Below, piece by piece: positions 18,078 through 24,222 of a stretch of DNA of 64,000 nt; within the stretch, counting starts at the first letter, position 1, and each line of letters begins with the position of its first letter. The notes under the pieces are model-generated. The model was not told the DNA's origin and searched no databases. It saw only the letters and a program-made list of their open reading frames with translations. Source of the stretch: Streptomyces vietnamensis (GTDB taxonomy: Bacteria; Actinomycetota; Actinomycetes; Streptomycetales; Streptomycetaceae); NCBI RefSeq assembly GCF_000830005.1, contig NZ_CP010407.1, forward strand, positions 2,585,001 to 2,649,000, in the 5' to 3' direction. The position numbers and the translations under genes are program-made.

Positions 18078-18254
18078 TCCGCACCCCCGTGAAGACGCCG
18101 TCGGCATGTTGTCGTGGCGGCGCCAGCATGGCACAGCGATCACTGCCCCGGCAGACGATCGGCGGACCCGCTTCCGGCCAGGTGTGAGGCGCCTCCCACC
18201 CCCGGAGCGGCGGGCGTACGGGCCGGTAGAGTGGGCGGGTCGTCATCATGCCCG

Positions 18255-18378
18255 TACGGGGGGAAGCCGGTGAAAATCCGGCACTGACCCTTCCCCGAGC
18301 TCTCGGCTCCGCTCGAGCAGGGGACACCCCATTCCGTATGCCGCTCCGAAAACCAGCGGTGAGTCGGAATGCCCCGCC
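18255..18378 (+). ncRNA. cobalamin riboswitch (class II / AdoCbl-variant-like)
   Basis: The conserved core GGGGAAGCCGGTGAAAATCC and GGCACTGACCC is followed by a variable arm and then AGCGGTGAGTCGGAATGCC, matching the closing part of short cobalamin riboswitches. The large P6 region of class I is missing. It ends about 90 bp upstream of a five-gene operon with an ECF transporter, so B12 should switch that operon off. Confidence 0.8.
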
Positions 18379-18469
18379 CGGGACATGACCGCCGGCACCG
18401 TCGAGGAATACGGAGCCGGAGCCTGGTGCCCCCGAGGCGTGCCGGTGCCCGGCCGCAGGAGAGGGCCCC

Positions 18470-19726
18470 ATGAACACCGTCCGCCGCGGCGCCGCCGCGC
18501 TCGCCGCCGCCGCAGTCGTGCTCGGCACCGCCGCAGCCGGGGCGGCCTCCGCCGCGCCCTCGCCGTCGCCGTCGCCCTCCGTCGGCACCTCCGCGTCCGG
18601 CCTGTACGGCACGAAGGACCCCACGTACGACGGTGTCTGGCGGCAGTCGCTCGCCTTCCTCGCCCAGCGCGGCACCGGCTACCAGCCCGCCGACCGGGCC
18701 GTGGACTGGCTCCTGGGCCAGCAGTGCGCCGACGGCTCGTTCGCCTCGTACCGCGCGGACGTGACGAAGGCCTGCGACGCGAAGACGATGCGGGACACCA
18801 ACGCCACCGCCGTCGCCGTCCAGGCGCTCCGCGCCGTGCGCCGTCAGTCCGCCGCCCCGGAGAAGATCGACAAGGCCGTCAAGGCCGGCTCCGACTGGCT
18901 GCGGACCGTGCAGAACAAGGACGGCGGCTGGGGCTACGGCGTCGGCGGCGCGAGCGACGCCAACTCCACGTCGGTCGTCGTCGGCGCGCTCGCCGCGATC
19001 GGTGTGCGGCCCGGCCAGTTCACCTCCGCCGAGGGCCGCAGCCCCTACGACGCGCTCCTCTCCTTCGCCCTGCCCTGCTCCGCTACAGAGGGCGCAGGGG
19101 CGTTCGCGTACCAGCCGGACAAGACCGGCAAGCTCCTCGCCAACGCCGACGCCACCGCGGCGGCCACCCTCGCCGGGCTCGGCAAGAGCGTCGTCGCCAC
19201 CAAGGCCTCCCCCGAGCAGCCGCCGACCTGCACCGACCTGTCGAAGCCGACCGTCGAGCGGGCCGCGCTGAACGGCGCCTCGTACCTCTCGAAGGCCCTC
19301 GCGAAGACCGGCCACCTCACCCTGCCGCCGATGCCCGGCGCCACCGACACCACCGAGCAGCCCGACATCGGCAACACCGCCGACGCCGTCGTCGCGCTCG
19401 CCGCCGCCGGCGCCGCGAAGGAGGCCGAACCGGCGCTCGCGTGGCTGGAGAAGAACTCCGCCGCCTGGGCGAAGGAGGGCGGCCCCGCCGCGTACGCGCA
19501 GCTGATCCTGGCGGCCCGCGCGACGGACACCGACCCGCGCGAGTTCGGCACGGTGGACCTGGTCGAGCAGCTCAACGCCACCGGCCCCGCGCCCAAGGCC
19601 CCGGACACCTCCGCCTCCTCCACCAGCGACGAGGGGGAGTCCGGCTTCGACGTCTGGTGGATCATCGGCATCGGCATGGTCGTCGGCGTCGGCATCGGCT
19701 TCCTCGTGAGCGGCCGCAAGAAGTGA
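18470..19726 (+). CDS. secreted, membrane-anchored alpha-barrel protein (prenyltransferase/squalene-oxidase repeats)
   Basis: 418 aa. Sec signal (RRGAAALAAAAVVLGTAAAGAASA), then repeats typical of the alpha6-alpha6 barrel superfamily: DRAVDWLLGQQCADGSFA, ASDWLRTVQNKDGGWGYG-like and GDTADAVVALAAAG-like units, and a C-terminal membrane helix (VWWIIGIGMVVGVGIGFLV) with positive stop. The catalytic DxDD of squalene cyclases is absent, so a binding role is more likely. Same fold class as the alpha domain of transcobalamin and intrinsic factor. First gene after the B12 riboswitch; GTGA overlap with the next gene. Confidence 0.85.
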   Translation: MNTVRRGAAALAAAAVVLGTAAAGAASAAPSPSPSPSVGTSASGLYGTKDPTYDGVWRQSLAFLAQRGTGYQPADRAVDWLLGQQCADGSFASYRADVTKACDAKTMRDTNATAVAVQALRAVRRQSAAPEKIDKAVKAGSDWLRTVQNKDGGWGYGVGGASDANSTSVVVGALAAIGVRPGQFTSAEGRSPYDALLSFALPCSATEGAGAFAYQPDKTGKLLANADATAAATLAGLGKSVVATKASPEQPPTCTDLSKPTVERAALNGASYLSKALAKTGHLTLPPMPGATDTTEQPDIGNTADAVVALAAAGAAKEAEPALAWLEKNSAAWAKEGGPAAYAQLILAARATDTDPREFGTVDLVEQLNATGPAPKAPDTSASSTSDEGESGFDVWWIIGIGMVVGVGIGFLVSGRKK

Positions 19727-20379
19727 GCCGTACGGGGATACGGGCCGCGGGCGCCGCGGCGGGGGCGCTCCTGGCCCTGGCCGCGGCGGCTCCGGCGCAG
19801 GCGGCCGGTTACCGCTACTGGTCGTTCTGGGAGAGCGACGGCGGGAAGCCCTGGGCGTACGCCACGCAGGGCCCGGCGACCGCCCGGCCGGCGGACGGCG
19901 ACGTCCTCGGCTTCCGCTTCGCGATCAGCAACGGCACGGACGACACCTCCCGGCCCTCCGTGGCCCCCGACTTCCCGGGGATCTGCGGGGGCGTGGAGAA
20001 GAAGGACGGTACGAAGCGGATCGCGGTCGTCGTCGACTTCGGCGGCCCGGTGGACGCGCCGCCCGGGGAGACCCCGCCGAAGAAGCCGATCGAGGTCGGC
20101 TGCGCGGAGGTCCGCGAGGACGCGACGGGCGCGGAGGCGCTGGCGGCGGTGGCGAAGCCGCTGCGGTACGACAGCGCGGCCATGCTGTGCGGGATCGCGG
20201 GGTACCCGGCGAAGGGCTGCGGCGAACAGGTCGAGGAGACCGGGAAGAAGACCCCGGCGCCGACGACTCCGGCCTCTCCGGACGGGAAGGGCGGCCCGTC
20301 CTTCGGCGTACTCGCGGGCGGGGCGGCGGTCCTGGCCCTGGGCGGGGCGGCGATCTGGAAGGCCCGCCGACGCGGATGA
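19723..20379 (+). CDS. secreted, membrane-anchored SCO2322-family protein
   Basis: 218 aa from a GTG overlapping the previous stop. Signal peptide ending in APAQAA, then a compact domain beginning YRYWSFWESDGGKPWAYATQ and containing ADGDVLGFRF, four cysteines, a Pro/Thr linker and a C-terminal helix (FGVLAGGAAVLALGGAAIW). The W-rich start plus DGDVLGFRF recalls the small beta domain of transcobalamin-type proteins (DUF4430), but this is only a visual likeness. Always seen here with the barrel protein and the ECF genes, suggesting a joint capture role. Confidence 0.8.
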   Translation: MSRTGIRAAGAAAGALLALAAAAPAQAAGYRYWSFWESDGGKPWAYATQGPATARPADGDVLGFRFAISNGTDDTSRPSVAPDFPGICGGVEKKDGTKRIAVVVDFGGPVDAPPGETPPKKPIEVGCAEVREDATGAEALAAVAKPLRYDSAAMLCGIAGYPAKGCGEQVEETGKKTPAPTTPASPDGKGGPSFGVLAGGAAVLALGGAAIWKARRRG

Positions 20380-21542
20380 CGCGGATGAGTACGGCCCGGA
20401 GCGTGTACACGGCGTCGGCCCGGAGCATGTTCACGGCGTCGGCCCGGAGCGTGTACACGGCCCCCGAGGCGAGCCGGGCCAACGCCCTGCACGCGGGCGC
20501 GTGGTGGCTGTGGGCGCTCGGCCTGGCCGTCGCCGCGTCCAGGACCACGAACCCGCTGCTGCTCGGACTGCTCGTCGGGGTGGCGGGTTACGTGGTGGCG
20601 GCGCGGCGTACGGACGCGCCCTGGGCCCGCTCGTACGGCGCGTTCGTGAAGCTGGGCCTGTTCGTCGTGGTGCTACGAGTGGTCTTCTCCCTCCTCCTCG
20701 GCTCCCCGATCCCCGGTGAGCACGAACTGTTCACCCTCCCCGAGGTGCCGCTGCCGGACTGGGCGCAGGGGGTACGGATCGGGGGCCGGGTGACGGCCGA
20801 GCAGCTGGTGTTCGCGCTGTACGACGGCGCGAAGCTGGCGGCCCTGCTGATCTGCGTGGGCGCCGCGAACGCGCTCGCCAACCCGGCGCGGCTCCTCAAG
20901 TCGCTGCCGGGGGCGCTGTACGAGGCCGGGGTCGCCGTCGTCGTGGCGATGACCTTCGCGCCGAACATGGTCGCCGACGTGGTCCGGCTGCGGACCGCCC
21001 GCCGACTGCGCGGCCGGCCCACGGGCGGGGTGCGGGCGGTGCTCCAGATCGGGCTGCCGGTCCTGGAGGGAGCGCTGGAACGGTCGATCGCGGTGGCGGC
21101 GTCGATGGACGCGCGGGGCTACGGGCGGACGGCCCGGGTCCCGGCGGCGGTACGCCGCACCACGAACGTCCTGACCCTGGGGGGCCTCCTCGGCATCTGC
21201 GCGGGCTCGTACGGCCTGTTGGCGGCGGAGGGCGCGGAATACGGACTCCCGCTCCTCCTCGCCGGGCTCGTCGCGGCGATGGCGGGGCTCCGGCTCGGCG
21301 GCCGCAGGACGGTCCGTACGCGCTACCGCCCCGACCGCTGGGGCGCGCGGGCGTGGCTGGTCGCGGGCTCCGGGGCGGCGGTCGCGGTCCTGATGATCCG
21401 GGCGAACGCGTACGCGCCGGAGGCACTGCACCCCGGGGTCGTCCCGCTGGAGGCGCCGGAGCTGCCGCTGTGGCCGGCGGCGTCGGTCCTGGTGGGCCTG
21501 CTCCCGGCGTGGGTGGCGCCGAAACCCAAGGAGAACGTGTGA
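20376..21542 (+). CDS. ecfT: ECF transporter transmembrane component (EcfT)
   Basis: 388 aa. Five or more hydrophobic helices and the coupling motif region SLPGALYEAGVAVVVAMTFAPNM with the ARG signature (MDARGYGRTARVP), which contacts the ATPases. The start is an ATG overlapping the previous TGA (ATGA). Three tandem 8-residue repeats (ARSVYTAS, ARSMFTAS, ARSVYTAP) extend the N-terminus; an ATG at 20385 is an alternative start but keeps them. Extra C-terminal helices continue beyond the usual EcfT length. Confidence 0.88.
   Translation: MTRMSTARSVYTASARSMFTASARSVYTAPEASRANALHAGAWWLWALGLAVAASRTTNPLLLGLLVGVAGYVVAARRTDAPWARSYGAFVKLGLFVVVLRVVFSLLLGSPIPGEHELFTLPEVPLPDWAQGVRIGGRVTAEQLVFALYDGAKLAALLICVGAANALANPARLLKSLPGALYEAGVAVVVAMTFAPNMVADVVRLRTARRLRGRPTGGVRAVLQIGLPVLEGALERSIAVAASMDARGYGRTARVPAAVRRTTNVLTLGGLLGICAGSYGLLAAEGAEYGLPLLLAGLVAAMAGLRLGGRRTVRTRYRPDRWGARAWLVAGSGAAVAVLMIRANAYAPEALHPGVVPLEAPELPLWPAASVLVGLLPAWVAPKPKENV
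20394..20463 (+). repeat. three 24-bp tandem repeats at the ecfT 5' end
   Basis: Units starting at 20394, 20418 and 20442, differing by two bases, encode the eight-residue repeats ARSVYTAS/ARSMFTAS/ARSVYTAP in frame. Copy number could vary without breaking the reading frame. Confidence 0.8.
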
Positions 21543-23347
21543 TCCGCTTCGAAAACGTCTCGGTGCGCTACGAGGAGGACGCCGAGCCCACGCTCCGGAA
21601 CGTGAACCTCACCGTCCCCGAGGGCGAACTGGTCCTCCTGGTCGGCCCGTCGGGCGTGGGCAAGTCGACCCTCCTGGGCGCGGTGTCGGGCCTCGTCCCC
21701 CACTTCACGGGCGGCACCCTGACCGGACGGGTGACGGTCGACGGCCGCGACACCCGCACGCATCCGCCGCGCGAGCTCGCGGACCTGGTGGGGACGGTGG
21801 GACAGGACCCGTCCGCGCACTTCGTCACGGACACGGTGGAGGACGAGCTCGCGTACGGCATGGAGTCCCTGGGCCTGGCGCCGGGAGTGATGCGCCGCCG
21901 GGTCGAGGAGACCCTCGACCTCCTGGGCCTCGCGGAACTCCGCGACCGCCCGATCGCGACGCTCTCCGGCGGCCAGCGCCAGCGGGTCGCGATCGGCTCC
22001 GTCCTGACCCCGCACCCGAAGGTCCTCGTCCTCGACGAACCGACGTCCGCGCTCGACCCGTCGGCGGCGGAGGACGTCCTCGCGGTCCTCCAGCGCCTGG
22101 TCCACGACCTCGGCACGACGGTCCTCCTGGCGGAACACCGCCTGGAGCGCGTCGTACAGTACGCGGACCAGGTCATCCTCCTGCCGGACGCGGTGATGGG
22201 CCCCCCGGCGGAGATCATGTCGATCTCGCCGGTGCACCCACCGGTGGTGGCACTGGGCCGACTCGCGGGCTGGGCCCCGCTGCCGCTGACGGTGCGGGAT
22301 GCGCGGCGAAGGGCGGCGCCACTGAAGGCCAGCCTGGAGGGCCGGGCACCGACGAGCCCTGCGGGACTTCTCCCCCACCCCACCCGAAATACAGCCCCGC
22401 CGGCGCTTGAGGCGCGGGGGGCCAATCCCGCCCCGCCGGCGTTTGAGGCGCGGGGGGCCGGGGGCAGCGCCCCCGGTTCTGGGCCCGGGGCCAGTCCGGC
22501 CCCCCGGGGTCCGGGGCGGAGCCCCGGTCTGGGGAAGGGGCGGGGTGGGGGCTTCTCCCTGTTCCGACGGCGCCGCACCGAACCCGGCACCCCCACCGAC
22601 ACCCTCGTAACCGTCACCGCCCTCGGCGTCCGCCGCGCCCGCGTAGAGGCCCTCCGCCGCGTCGACCTCCAGGTCGCCCCCGGCGAGACCGTCGCGCTCA
22701 TGGGCCGGAACGGTGCCGGGAAGTCCACCCTGCTCTCCACGCTCGTGGGCATGATCGAGCCGACGACCGGCACGGTCCGGGTCGCGGGGCGGGCCCCGCA
22801 CAGCACCCCGCCCCGTGAGCTGATCCGCCAGGTCGGCCTGGTTCCGCAGGAGCCGCGGGACCTGCTGTACGCGGACACCGTCGCCGCCGAGTGCACGGCG
22901 GCCGACGCGGACGCGGGCGCGACGCCCGGGACCTGCCGGGCGCTGGTGGACGACCTGCTGCCGGAGATCGCGGACGACACGCACCCCCGCGACCTCTCCG
23001 AGGGCCAGCGCCTCGCACTCGCGCTGGCCGTGGTCCTGACCGGCCGCCCCCCGCTGCTCCTGCTCGACGAGCCGACCCGCGGCCTGGACTACGCGGCGAA
23101 GGCCCGCCTGGTCGCCCACCTCCGTACCCTCGCGGCGGACGGGCACGCGATCGTGCTGGCGACGCACGACGTGGAGCTGGCGGCGGAGCTGGCGCACCGG
23201 GTGGTGATCATCGCGGACGGCGAGGTCGTCGCGGACGGCCCGACGGCCGAGGTGGTCGTCTCCTCACCGGCCTTCTCGCCGCAGGTGGCGAAGATCCTCG
23301 CCCCGCAGCCGTGGCTCACGGTCGAGCAGGTGGAGGCTGCCCTGTGA
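21539..23347 (+). CDS. ecfA: fused double ECF ATPase (EcfA-EcfA')
   Basis: 602 aa, two ABC domains in one chain. Domain 1: Walker A GPSGVGKST, signature LSGGQRQR, Walker B VLVLDEPTS. Domain 2: Walker A GRNGAGKST, degenerate signature LSEGQRLA, Walker B LLLLDEPTR. They are joined by a linker of about 110 residues encoded by a Streptomyces repeat (22395-22545). GTG start overlaps the ecfT stop, with AAGGAG upstream. It energises the transporter together with EcfT and EcfS. Confidence 0.9.
   Translation: MIRFENVSVRYEEDAEPTLRNVNLTVPEGELVLLVGPSGVGKSTLLGAVSGLVPHFTGGTLTGRVTVDGRDTRTHPPRELADLVGTVGQDPSAHFVTDTVEDELAYGMESLGLAPGVMRRRVEETLDLLGLAELRDRPIATLSGGQRQRVAIGSVLTPHPKVLVLDEPTSALDPSAAEDVLAVLQRLVHDLGTTVLLAEHRLERVVQYADQVILLPDAVMGPPAEIMSISPVHPPVVALGRLAGWAPLPLTVRDARRRAAPLKASLEGRAPTSPAGLLPHPTRNTAPPALEARGANPAPPAFEARGAGGSAPGSGPGASPAPRGPGRSPGLGKGRGGGFSLFRRRRTEPGTPTDTLVTVTALGVRRARVEALRRVDLQVAPGETVALMGRNGAGKSTLLSTLVGMIEPTTGTVRVAGRAPHSTPPRELIRQVGLVPQEPRDLLYADTVAAECTAADADAGATPGTCRALVDDLLPEIADDTHPRDLSEGQRLALALAVVLTGRPPLLLLDEPTRGLDYAAKARLVAHLRTLAADGHAIVLATHDVELAAELAHRVVIIADGEVVADGPTAEVVVSSPAFSPQVAKILAPQPWLTVEQVEAAL
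22395..22545. repeat. intergenic-type Streptomyces repeat embedded in a coding sequence
   Basis: Two 29-bp copies (22395-22423 and 22431-22459, one mismatch) with the core CCGCCGGCGTTTGAGGCGCG are followed by GGGGCGGAGCCCCGGTCTG. This sequence family is normally seen between genes in Streptomyces. Here it is read through in frame and makes the Gly/Pro/Ala linker of the fused ATPase. Confidence 0.75.
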
Positions 23348-24222
23348 GCACCACCAGGACGTCCCGCCCGCTCCGCCTCGGCCCCCGCTCGGTCGCGGCA
23401 CTCGCCCTCGTCTCTCTCGTCGGGGTGCTCGCCTTCTGCTGGCCCCTCTTCGCGGACGCCGGTTCCGCCGTGACCTCGCACGCCGGGGACGCGCCGTGGC
23501 TGTTCGCGGCGCTGCTCCCGCTCCTGGTCGCGGTGGTGGTGGCGACGATCGCGGACTGCGGGATGGACGCGAAGGCGGTGGCGATGCTGGGTGTGCTCGC
23601 CGCGGTGGGCGCGGCGCTCCGCCCGTTGGGGGCGGGGACGGCCGGCCTGGAGCCGATGTTCTTCCTGATGGTGCTGAGCGGCCGGGTCCTGGGGCCGGGC
23701 TTCGGCTTCGTCCTGGGCTCGGTGACGATGTTCGCGTCGGCTCTGCTGACGGGCGGGGTGGGCCCGTGGATGCCGTTCCAGATGCTGTCGATGGGCTGGT
23801 TCACGATGGGCGCGGGGCTGCTGCCGGGCTCGGACCGCCCTCGTGGTCGGGCCGAGCTGCTGATGCTGTCCGCGTACGGATTCGTGGCGGCGTTCGCGTA
23901 CGGCACGGTCATGAACCTGCAGGGCTGGGTCCTGCTCCAGAGTCCGGGCAGCAGCGGGATCTCCTTCGTGCCGGGCGCCCCGCTCCACGAGAACCTGGTC
24001 CGTTTCCTCGCGTACGTCCTCGCCACTTCCCTCGGCTGGGACCTGGGTCGCGCCGCCCTGACCGTCGTCCTGACCCTCACCGTCGGCGGCACGCTCCTGC
24101 GGGCGCTGCGGCGGGCCACACGGCGGGCGAACTTCGAGGCCCAGGTCACATTCGAGGCCCCGGAAGAGCCCTCTCCGAGTGAGGCGCCCCATAGGACCTA
24201 CATCACGTACGACCCGAAATAG
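23344..24222 (+). CDS. ECF transporter substrate-binding (S) component
   Basis: 292 aa, six or more hydrophobic segments, starting at a GTG that overlaps the ATPase stop (GTGA). The motif AALRPLGAGTAGLEPMFFLMVLSGRVLGPGFGFVLGSVTM (given in outline) is characteristic of ECF S components of the wider cobalamin/queuosine group. It ends the riboswitch operon. Cobalamin or a corrinoid is the likely substrate because of the riboswitch; this is not proven by sequence. Confidence 0.85.
   Translation: MSTTRTSRPLRLGPRSVAALALVSLVGVLAFCWPLFADAGSAVTSHAGDAPWLFAALLPLLVAVVVATIADCGMDAKAVAMLGVLAAVGAALRPLGAGTAGLEPMFFLMVLSGRVLGPGFGFVLGSVTMFASALLTGGVGPWMPFQMLSMGWFTMGAGLLPGSDRPRGRAELLMLSAYGFVAAFAYGTVMNLQGWVLLQSPGSSGISFVPGAPLHENLVRFLAYVLATSLGWDLGRAALTVVLTLTVGGTLLRALRRATRRANFEAQVTFEAPEEPSPSEAPHRTYITYDPK

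Follow-up and report, generated by a model that had tools for sequence, protein, structure and literature searches.

Gene content of the locus

The window analysed here, a 64-kb stretch of the Streptomyces vietnamensis genome, holds an operon of five verified + strand open reading frames, which encode two surface proteins, P1 and P2, and the parts of an energy-coupling factor (ECF) transporter, in the order P1-P2-EcfT-EcfAA'-S. We propose that this operon is probably a capture and import system for cobalamin (corrinoid), in which P1 and P2 would act as two anchored, transcobalamin-like halves. Its features, in window positions, are the following.

18215-18390, + strand: 5' leader, cobalamin-riboswitch-type aptamer with core at 18258-18290 and 18358-18379 (RF00174; leaders of relatives)
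18290-18333, no strand: palindromic dispersed repeat inside the aptamer core, where it replaces GCAAC (23 genome copies)
18470-19726, + strand: P1, 418 aa, SCO2321 family, permuted alpha/alpha-toroid (family profiles; hhalign; order-specific hidden Markov models, HMMs)
19723-20379, + strand: P2, 218 aa, SCO2322 family, permuted beta-grasp, as predicted (profiles; hhalign; order-specific HMMs; AlphaFold2)
20376-21542, + strand: EcfT, transmembrane coupling subunit, 388 aa (sub-threshold CbiQ match; position kept in 20/20 loci)
21539-23347, + strand: fused EcfA-EcfA' ATPase, 602 aa (ABC_tran matched in two stretches; protein score 197.5 bits)
23344-24222, + strand: S component, substrate-binding membrane subunit, 292 aa (PF12822 ECF_trnsprt, 34.6 bits)

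The five genes are chained by 4-bp overlaps at all four junctions, as the initial annotation of this DNA had described, and their order is kept in all 20 same-family loci compared, which were picked among genomes already known to have P2. P1 matches the NCBIfam model SCO2321_fam with 554.4 bits (cut-off 300) and Pfam SQHop_cyclase_C with 31.7 bits (cut-off 26.1). P2 reaches 214 bits with SCO2322_fam (cut-off 85), confirming its earlier assignment to that family, and matches no Pfam model. As read from the sequence, both proteins have a signal-like N-terminus and a hydrophobic C-terminal anchor, with a sub-threshold GPS-CTERM match in P2. Proteins above the SCO2322_fam cut-off occur in 117 of 150 genomes from the taxonomic family; at class level the figure is 103 of 296, and at phylum level 13 of 396.

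The transporter genes agree with the initial annotation in that EcfT, two ATPases and an S component, which define an ECF transporter, are encoded together. EcfT itself matches CbiQ (PF02361) below threshold only (18.4 bits, cut-off 25), and solved EcfT chains at E 0.02-0.083, in a list where an unrelated ribosomal protein stands at 0.042. The S component lies above the ECF_trnsprt cut-off of 30.7, has a weak sub-threshold match to the FolT family (16.5 bits, cut-off 60) and matched no solved S component by sequence.

Circular permutation of both surface domains

Residues ~43-257 and 258-372 of P1 are swapped relative to their order in relatives. When the P1 profile is aligned by hhalign with unpermuted relatives, 202 columns are covered in its native form (E 2.3e-45) and 304 after rotation in silico (E 4.4e-63). 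In two relatives (loci L114 and L102) the equivalent of the window P1 end continues directly, by eye, into the equivalent of the P1 start. P1 is a circular permutation of its relatives in the phylum. By sequence, its barrel comes closest to the squalene-hopene and drimenyl cyclases and does not match transcobalamin. The D.DD string is absent from the window P1, in keeping with the earlier description of an alpha-barrel without cyclase active site; as a string match at any position, it is present in 2 of the 21 P1 rows with the window order and in 1 of the 7 with the other order.

P2 shows the same kind of rearrangement: relatives from other classes match the two halves of the SCO2322 model in swapped order. 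Against unpermuted relatives, hhalign covers 62 columns of the native P2 profile (E 8e-17) and 124 after an in-silico half swap (E 5.3e-32), and P2 is a circularly permuted domain. The AlphaFold2 model of the window P2 (40 sequences; predicted local distance difference test, pLDDT, 93.2; predicted TM score 0.88) has strands at 4-13, 36-44, 72-80, 98-106, 122-124 and 130-133 and helices at 59-63 and 111-118. Compared with the SLBB definition of PMC1796856, the predicted elements read as a beta-grasp in strand order 4-5-1-2-helix-3, P2 residues 26-96 supplying strands 4-5 and residues 97-168 strands 1-2, the helix and strand 3. The unpermuted relative (strands 293-299, 312-318, 335-340, 343-349, 364-371 and 394-401; helix 324-330) has the same elements, which appear rotated in the window P2, and the insert place of the latter holds only a 3-residue strand. 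The initial annotation had looked to structure prediction for a transcobalamin-type fold in P2; the beta-grasp elements are predicted, but their order is rotated with respect to the transcobalamin domain. Cysteines 63, 102, 131 and 141 of the model are conserved in 40, 40, 39 and 39 of 40 permuted rows; in the unpermuted rows three columns are cysteine in 19/19 and the fourth in 8/19.

A DUF4430 assignment of P2, also considered initially, failed with the Pfam model, which matched neither P2, rotated P2 nor seven unpermuted relatives, and found nothing in the host genome. Aligned with DUF4430 rows, unpermuted P2 gives E 1.3e-6 and probability 90.6 (8.9e-6 and 83.1 in the reverse run), and rotated window-type P2 gives E 1.3e-4 and probability 54.3. 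We describe P2 as a probable relative of the transcobalamin C-terminal-like SLBB domain, without membership in PF14478. We offer the permutation of the P1 and P2 domains as a reason why the link to transcobalamin escapes standard models.

Relation to transcobalamin and to known uptake systems

Animal transcobalamin and intrinsic factor are single soluble chains. Like the operon, they combine an alpha/alpha toroid with a small beta-grasp domain (PDB 2bb6, 2pmv, 3kq4); unlike them, the operon encodes two anchored proteins from two genes, each circularly permuted. In this regard, one unpermuted relative carries a barrel and a P2-type domain within one chain, and the eight best Foldseek PDB matches of its predicted model are all intrinsic factor or transcobalamin, so that a transcobalamin-like two-domain architecture is predicted for it. 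The 'split transcobalamin' of the initial annotation is partly supported, as a likely kinship of toroid and beta-grasp, and has to be revised as to the form of the domains, both of which are permuted.

Loci L113 and L195 encode the barrel and the P2-type domain fused as a single chain. At L113 (1397-4279) the chain consists of a barrel and two P2-type domains, followed by further repeats that are presumably cell-wall-binding. At loci L097-L099, a long frame (1538-1886 aa) that matches DUF4430 two or three times is followed by a small DUF4430 gene, an ATPase and an S component.

Bacterial transcobalamin-like proteins were already proposed when the SLBB superfamily was defined: the available text of Burroughs et al. 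(2007, PMC1796856) describes bacterial proteins in which SLBB and toroid are fused, as well as second SLBB paralogues, beside CbiO/CbiQ genes, and proposes B12 scavenging by transcobalamin-like proteins together with Cbi-type transporters. As in the operon, those systems place secreted SLBB domains and toroids, fused or separate, near Cbi-type genes; P2 differs in being permuted and missed by the Pfam DUF4430 model, and that text contains neither 'Streptomyces' nor a word starting with 'permut'. ECF-CbrT of Lactobacillus delbrueckii (PMC5997447) is likewise an ECF transporter with a cobalamin S component; the available parts of that paper describe an ECF module common to several S components and mention no surface capture protein. 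In the acI genomes, cobalamin ECF modules were predicted behind cobalamin/adenosylcobalamin (AdoCbl) riboswitches (Kang et al., 2017, PMC5301498), again an inference from riboswitches, in genomes without B12 synthesis according to the text available; P2 is not described in those parts of the paper. One permuted beta-grasp, the E1 UFD domain, is named in the accessible text of PMC1949818. Searches of the open-licence literature found no mention of SCO2322 or SCO2325, nor, in titles and abstracts, of a permuted SLBB domain. As far as these searches show, what is new relative to that literature is the split arrangement of SCO2321/SCO2322 and the permutation of both partners.

Cobalamin as the likely cargo

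A cobalamin-clan riboswitch scores above cut-off on the same strand and directly 5' of the related operon in 31 of 73 loci scanned (6/20 + 9/20 + 9/20 + 7/13, the last 13 coming from 20 loci, L148-L167), a count that leaves out an opposite-strand match (L103) and one 2.7 kb upstream (L110). These riboswitches span three Rfam families, RF00174, RF01689 and RF01482. Within the taxonomic family, 15 of 40 leaders exceed a cobalamin-clan cut-off (6/20, being four RF00174 and two RF01689, and 9/20 in a second set).

Among 31 P2-bearing genomes, CbiC is present in 14, the host included, and none was detected in 17, and the B12 domain of MetH is found in 30; two of the 31 (G758 and G694) show no T or S within the stretch examined. 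Five small genomes (1.3-2.2 Mb) have MetH and no CbiC was found in them, and in all three small genomes scanned an AdoCbl riboswitch stands directly before P2-T-A-S. The riboswitch association, together with this CbiC/MetH pattern, makes corrinoid uptake the best reading, which in the host would amount to salvage. Judged from sequence, the operon very probably imports B12.

As an observation apart, the P1-P2 pair stands twice in tandem in one genome (G346, locus L116), giving the cluster P1-P2-P1-P2-T-A-S, where four RF00174 matches above cut-off lie within 13 kb.

Concordance and descent of the two permutations

Order-specific HMMs were run on 76 sources, that is, the window and 75 loci; they were partly built from loci later scored, with 13 unpermuted loci (L188-L200) kept out of building. 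Both genes were found in 46 sources, 26 with both permuted and 20 with both unpermuted; no locus (0/46) has only one partner permuted. The remaining sources comprise 15 with permuted P2 and no P1 (including L202, whose genome has P1 on another contig), that other contig with permuted P1 alone (L201), 2 with unpermuted P2 and no P1, 4 with unpermuted P1 and no P2, and 8 with neither. The agreement of the 46 loci reflects shared descent, not 46 independent events.

A first, hand-picked concordance count was discarded. It covered 83 P2 places, its rows being P2 with P1 in the same genome and weaker P1 rows and P2-only rows being left out, and gave 64 same-order, 3 clear opposite-order and 13 undecidable cases and 1 without nearby P1. 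Its two apparent mismatches (G561 and G560) were partial matches, which the order-specific HMMs assign as unpermuted/unpermuted (L161 and L188).

Mapped on the EcfT tree, the permuted rows require two changes, and two are also forced by the starred branches, since the small genomes (f97, no P1), with their long branches, stand apart from the others. The EcfS tree likewise requires two changes for the permuted rows; its starred branches force one, and no bootstrap tree has one. The approximately unbiased (AU) test on EcfT does not reject a single clade of permuted rows (p-AU 0.39), and a single origin of the permuted form is therefore possible. We put forward only tentatively, as somewhat less probable than its opposite, that a single coordinated change, on one branch of the phylum, permuted both halves while preserving a shared B12 site. 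Such a change would have shifted the termini and the membrane anchors of P1 and P2 alike.

Proposed model and alternative explanations

The findings presented here allow a model in which the P1 toroid and the P2 beta-grasp would most likely form two faces of a B12-binding site, in the manner of transcobalamin's two domains; a joint site between P1 and P2 is a slightly favoured arrangement. P1 and P2 would hand the corrinoid to the S component, and EcfT and EcfAA' would power its uptake. In many relatives, plentiful B12 would lower operon expression through the cobalamin riboswitch; in this strain, with its interrupted aptamer core, such control may be lost or altered. The model would give a likely function to SCO2321 and SCO2322, conserved families named only by Streptomyces loci, and the joint permutation of two putative partners in one operon makes an unusual natural experiment, in which the topology of the chain can be related to anchoring and to hand-over of the ligand.

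Several observations weigh against this model. The window leader matches RF00174 at 18215-18347 with 21.2 bits (E 0.0016, in a 351-base stretch), less than the gathering score of 31.5, and no Rfam family exceeds its gathering score in the window. Moreover, a palindrome interrupts the aptamer core where relatives have GACCC-GCAAC-CGTGA. The cobalamin-riboswitch-like leader of the initial annotation thus falls short in the window copy and finds its support in the same-family leaders above the RF00174/RF01689 cut-off; its identity is taken from these relatives, and the function of this strain's copy is doubtful. In addition, P1 is often absent from P2-bearing loci. This absence leads to an alternative, rather unlikely in our judgement, in which corrinoid is imported but captured by P2 and the S component alone, with P1 as an accessory such as a wall-spanning scaffold or a receptor for other corrinoids. 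The 14 permuted-P2 loci for which no P1 was found speak for it, the five small genomes among them, as does the AdoCbl riboswitch directly 5' of P2 in each small genome scanned. Opposed to it are the naturally fused chains that hold both barrel and P2-type domain, the transcobalamin precedent and the agreement of P1 and P2 permutations at all 46 loci.

A ligand other than cobalamin (another tetrapyrrole, cobalt, a terpenoid or another vitamin), with the barrel as a degenerate terpene cyclase, would suit the closeness of the barrel to squalene-hopene and drimenyl cyclases and the weak FolT-family match of the S component. We consider it improbable, given the riboswitches of three cobalamin families ahead of related operons, the missing D.DD string in the window P1 and the Foldseek ranking of intrinsic factor and transcobalamin above cyclases for the two-domain relative. 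Hardly credible, finally, is the notion that the order difference is an alignment artefact of internal repeats rather than a circular permutation. The P1 toroid is built of similar helical hairpins, and shifted alignments are therefore possible in principle; yet rotation gains columns in both proteins, junction sequences continue across the cut, the orders agree at every one of the 46 loci, and the P2 cysteines are conserved across the permuted rows and, in three columns, across all 19 unpermuted ones. A transcobalamin-like pair feeding an ECF importer remains our preferred reading.

Repeats in the operon and its leader

The linker between the ATPase halves (22397-22455) contains a GC-rich repeat, CCGCCGGCGNTTGAGGCGCGGGG, twice in tandem and read in frame, which has four copies genome-wide with <=1 mismatch.

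The leader palindrome has 23 copies in the genome with <=2 mismatches, as opposed to none for a reversed control pattern. Among 41 leaders including that of the window, the core motif is intact in 26, present only as its 5' half in 9 and absent in 6. Within the 5'-half class, L067 is a chance match and L058 and L061 are variants rather than clear insertions; L170, L174 and L185 were scored as intact on a second motif, the first being stray. C-rich/G-rich palindromes replace GCAAC after GACCC in 6 of the 41 leaders (window, L057, L069, L172, L177 and L180), with differing loop sequences and an identical insertion point (GACCC^GCAAC), as if mobile palindromes had repeatedly inserted at one point of the riboswitch core. 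By eye, L176 and L177 are near-identical around the core save for the palindrome.

A further copy (L138, C1:4064882-4064907) shares bases with the 3' end of another cobalamin riboswitch match, at C1:4064897-4065032 on the - strand; ~1.5 kb from that match, on the opposite strand, lies CbiC (C1:4066560). Twelve of the 23 copies (L127-L130, L132, L136, L137, L139, L140, L142, L143 and L145) have, by eye, common longer flanks with small variations, GTGCCCACC ... GCGGAACG ... TGCCCACA, and therefore appear to be parts of a larger unit that is itself dispersed.
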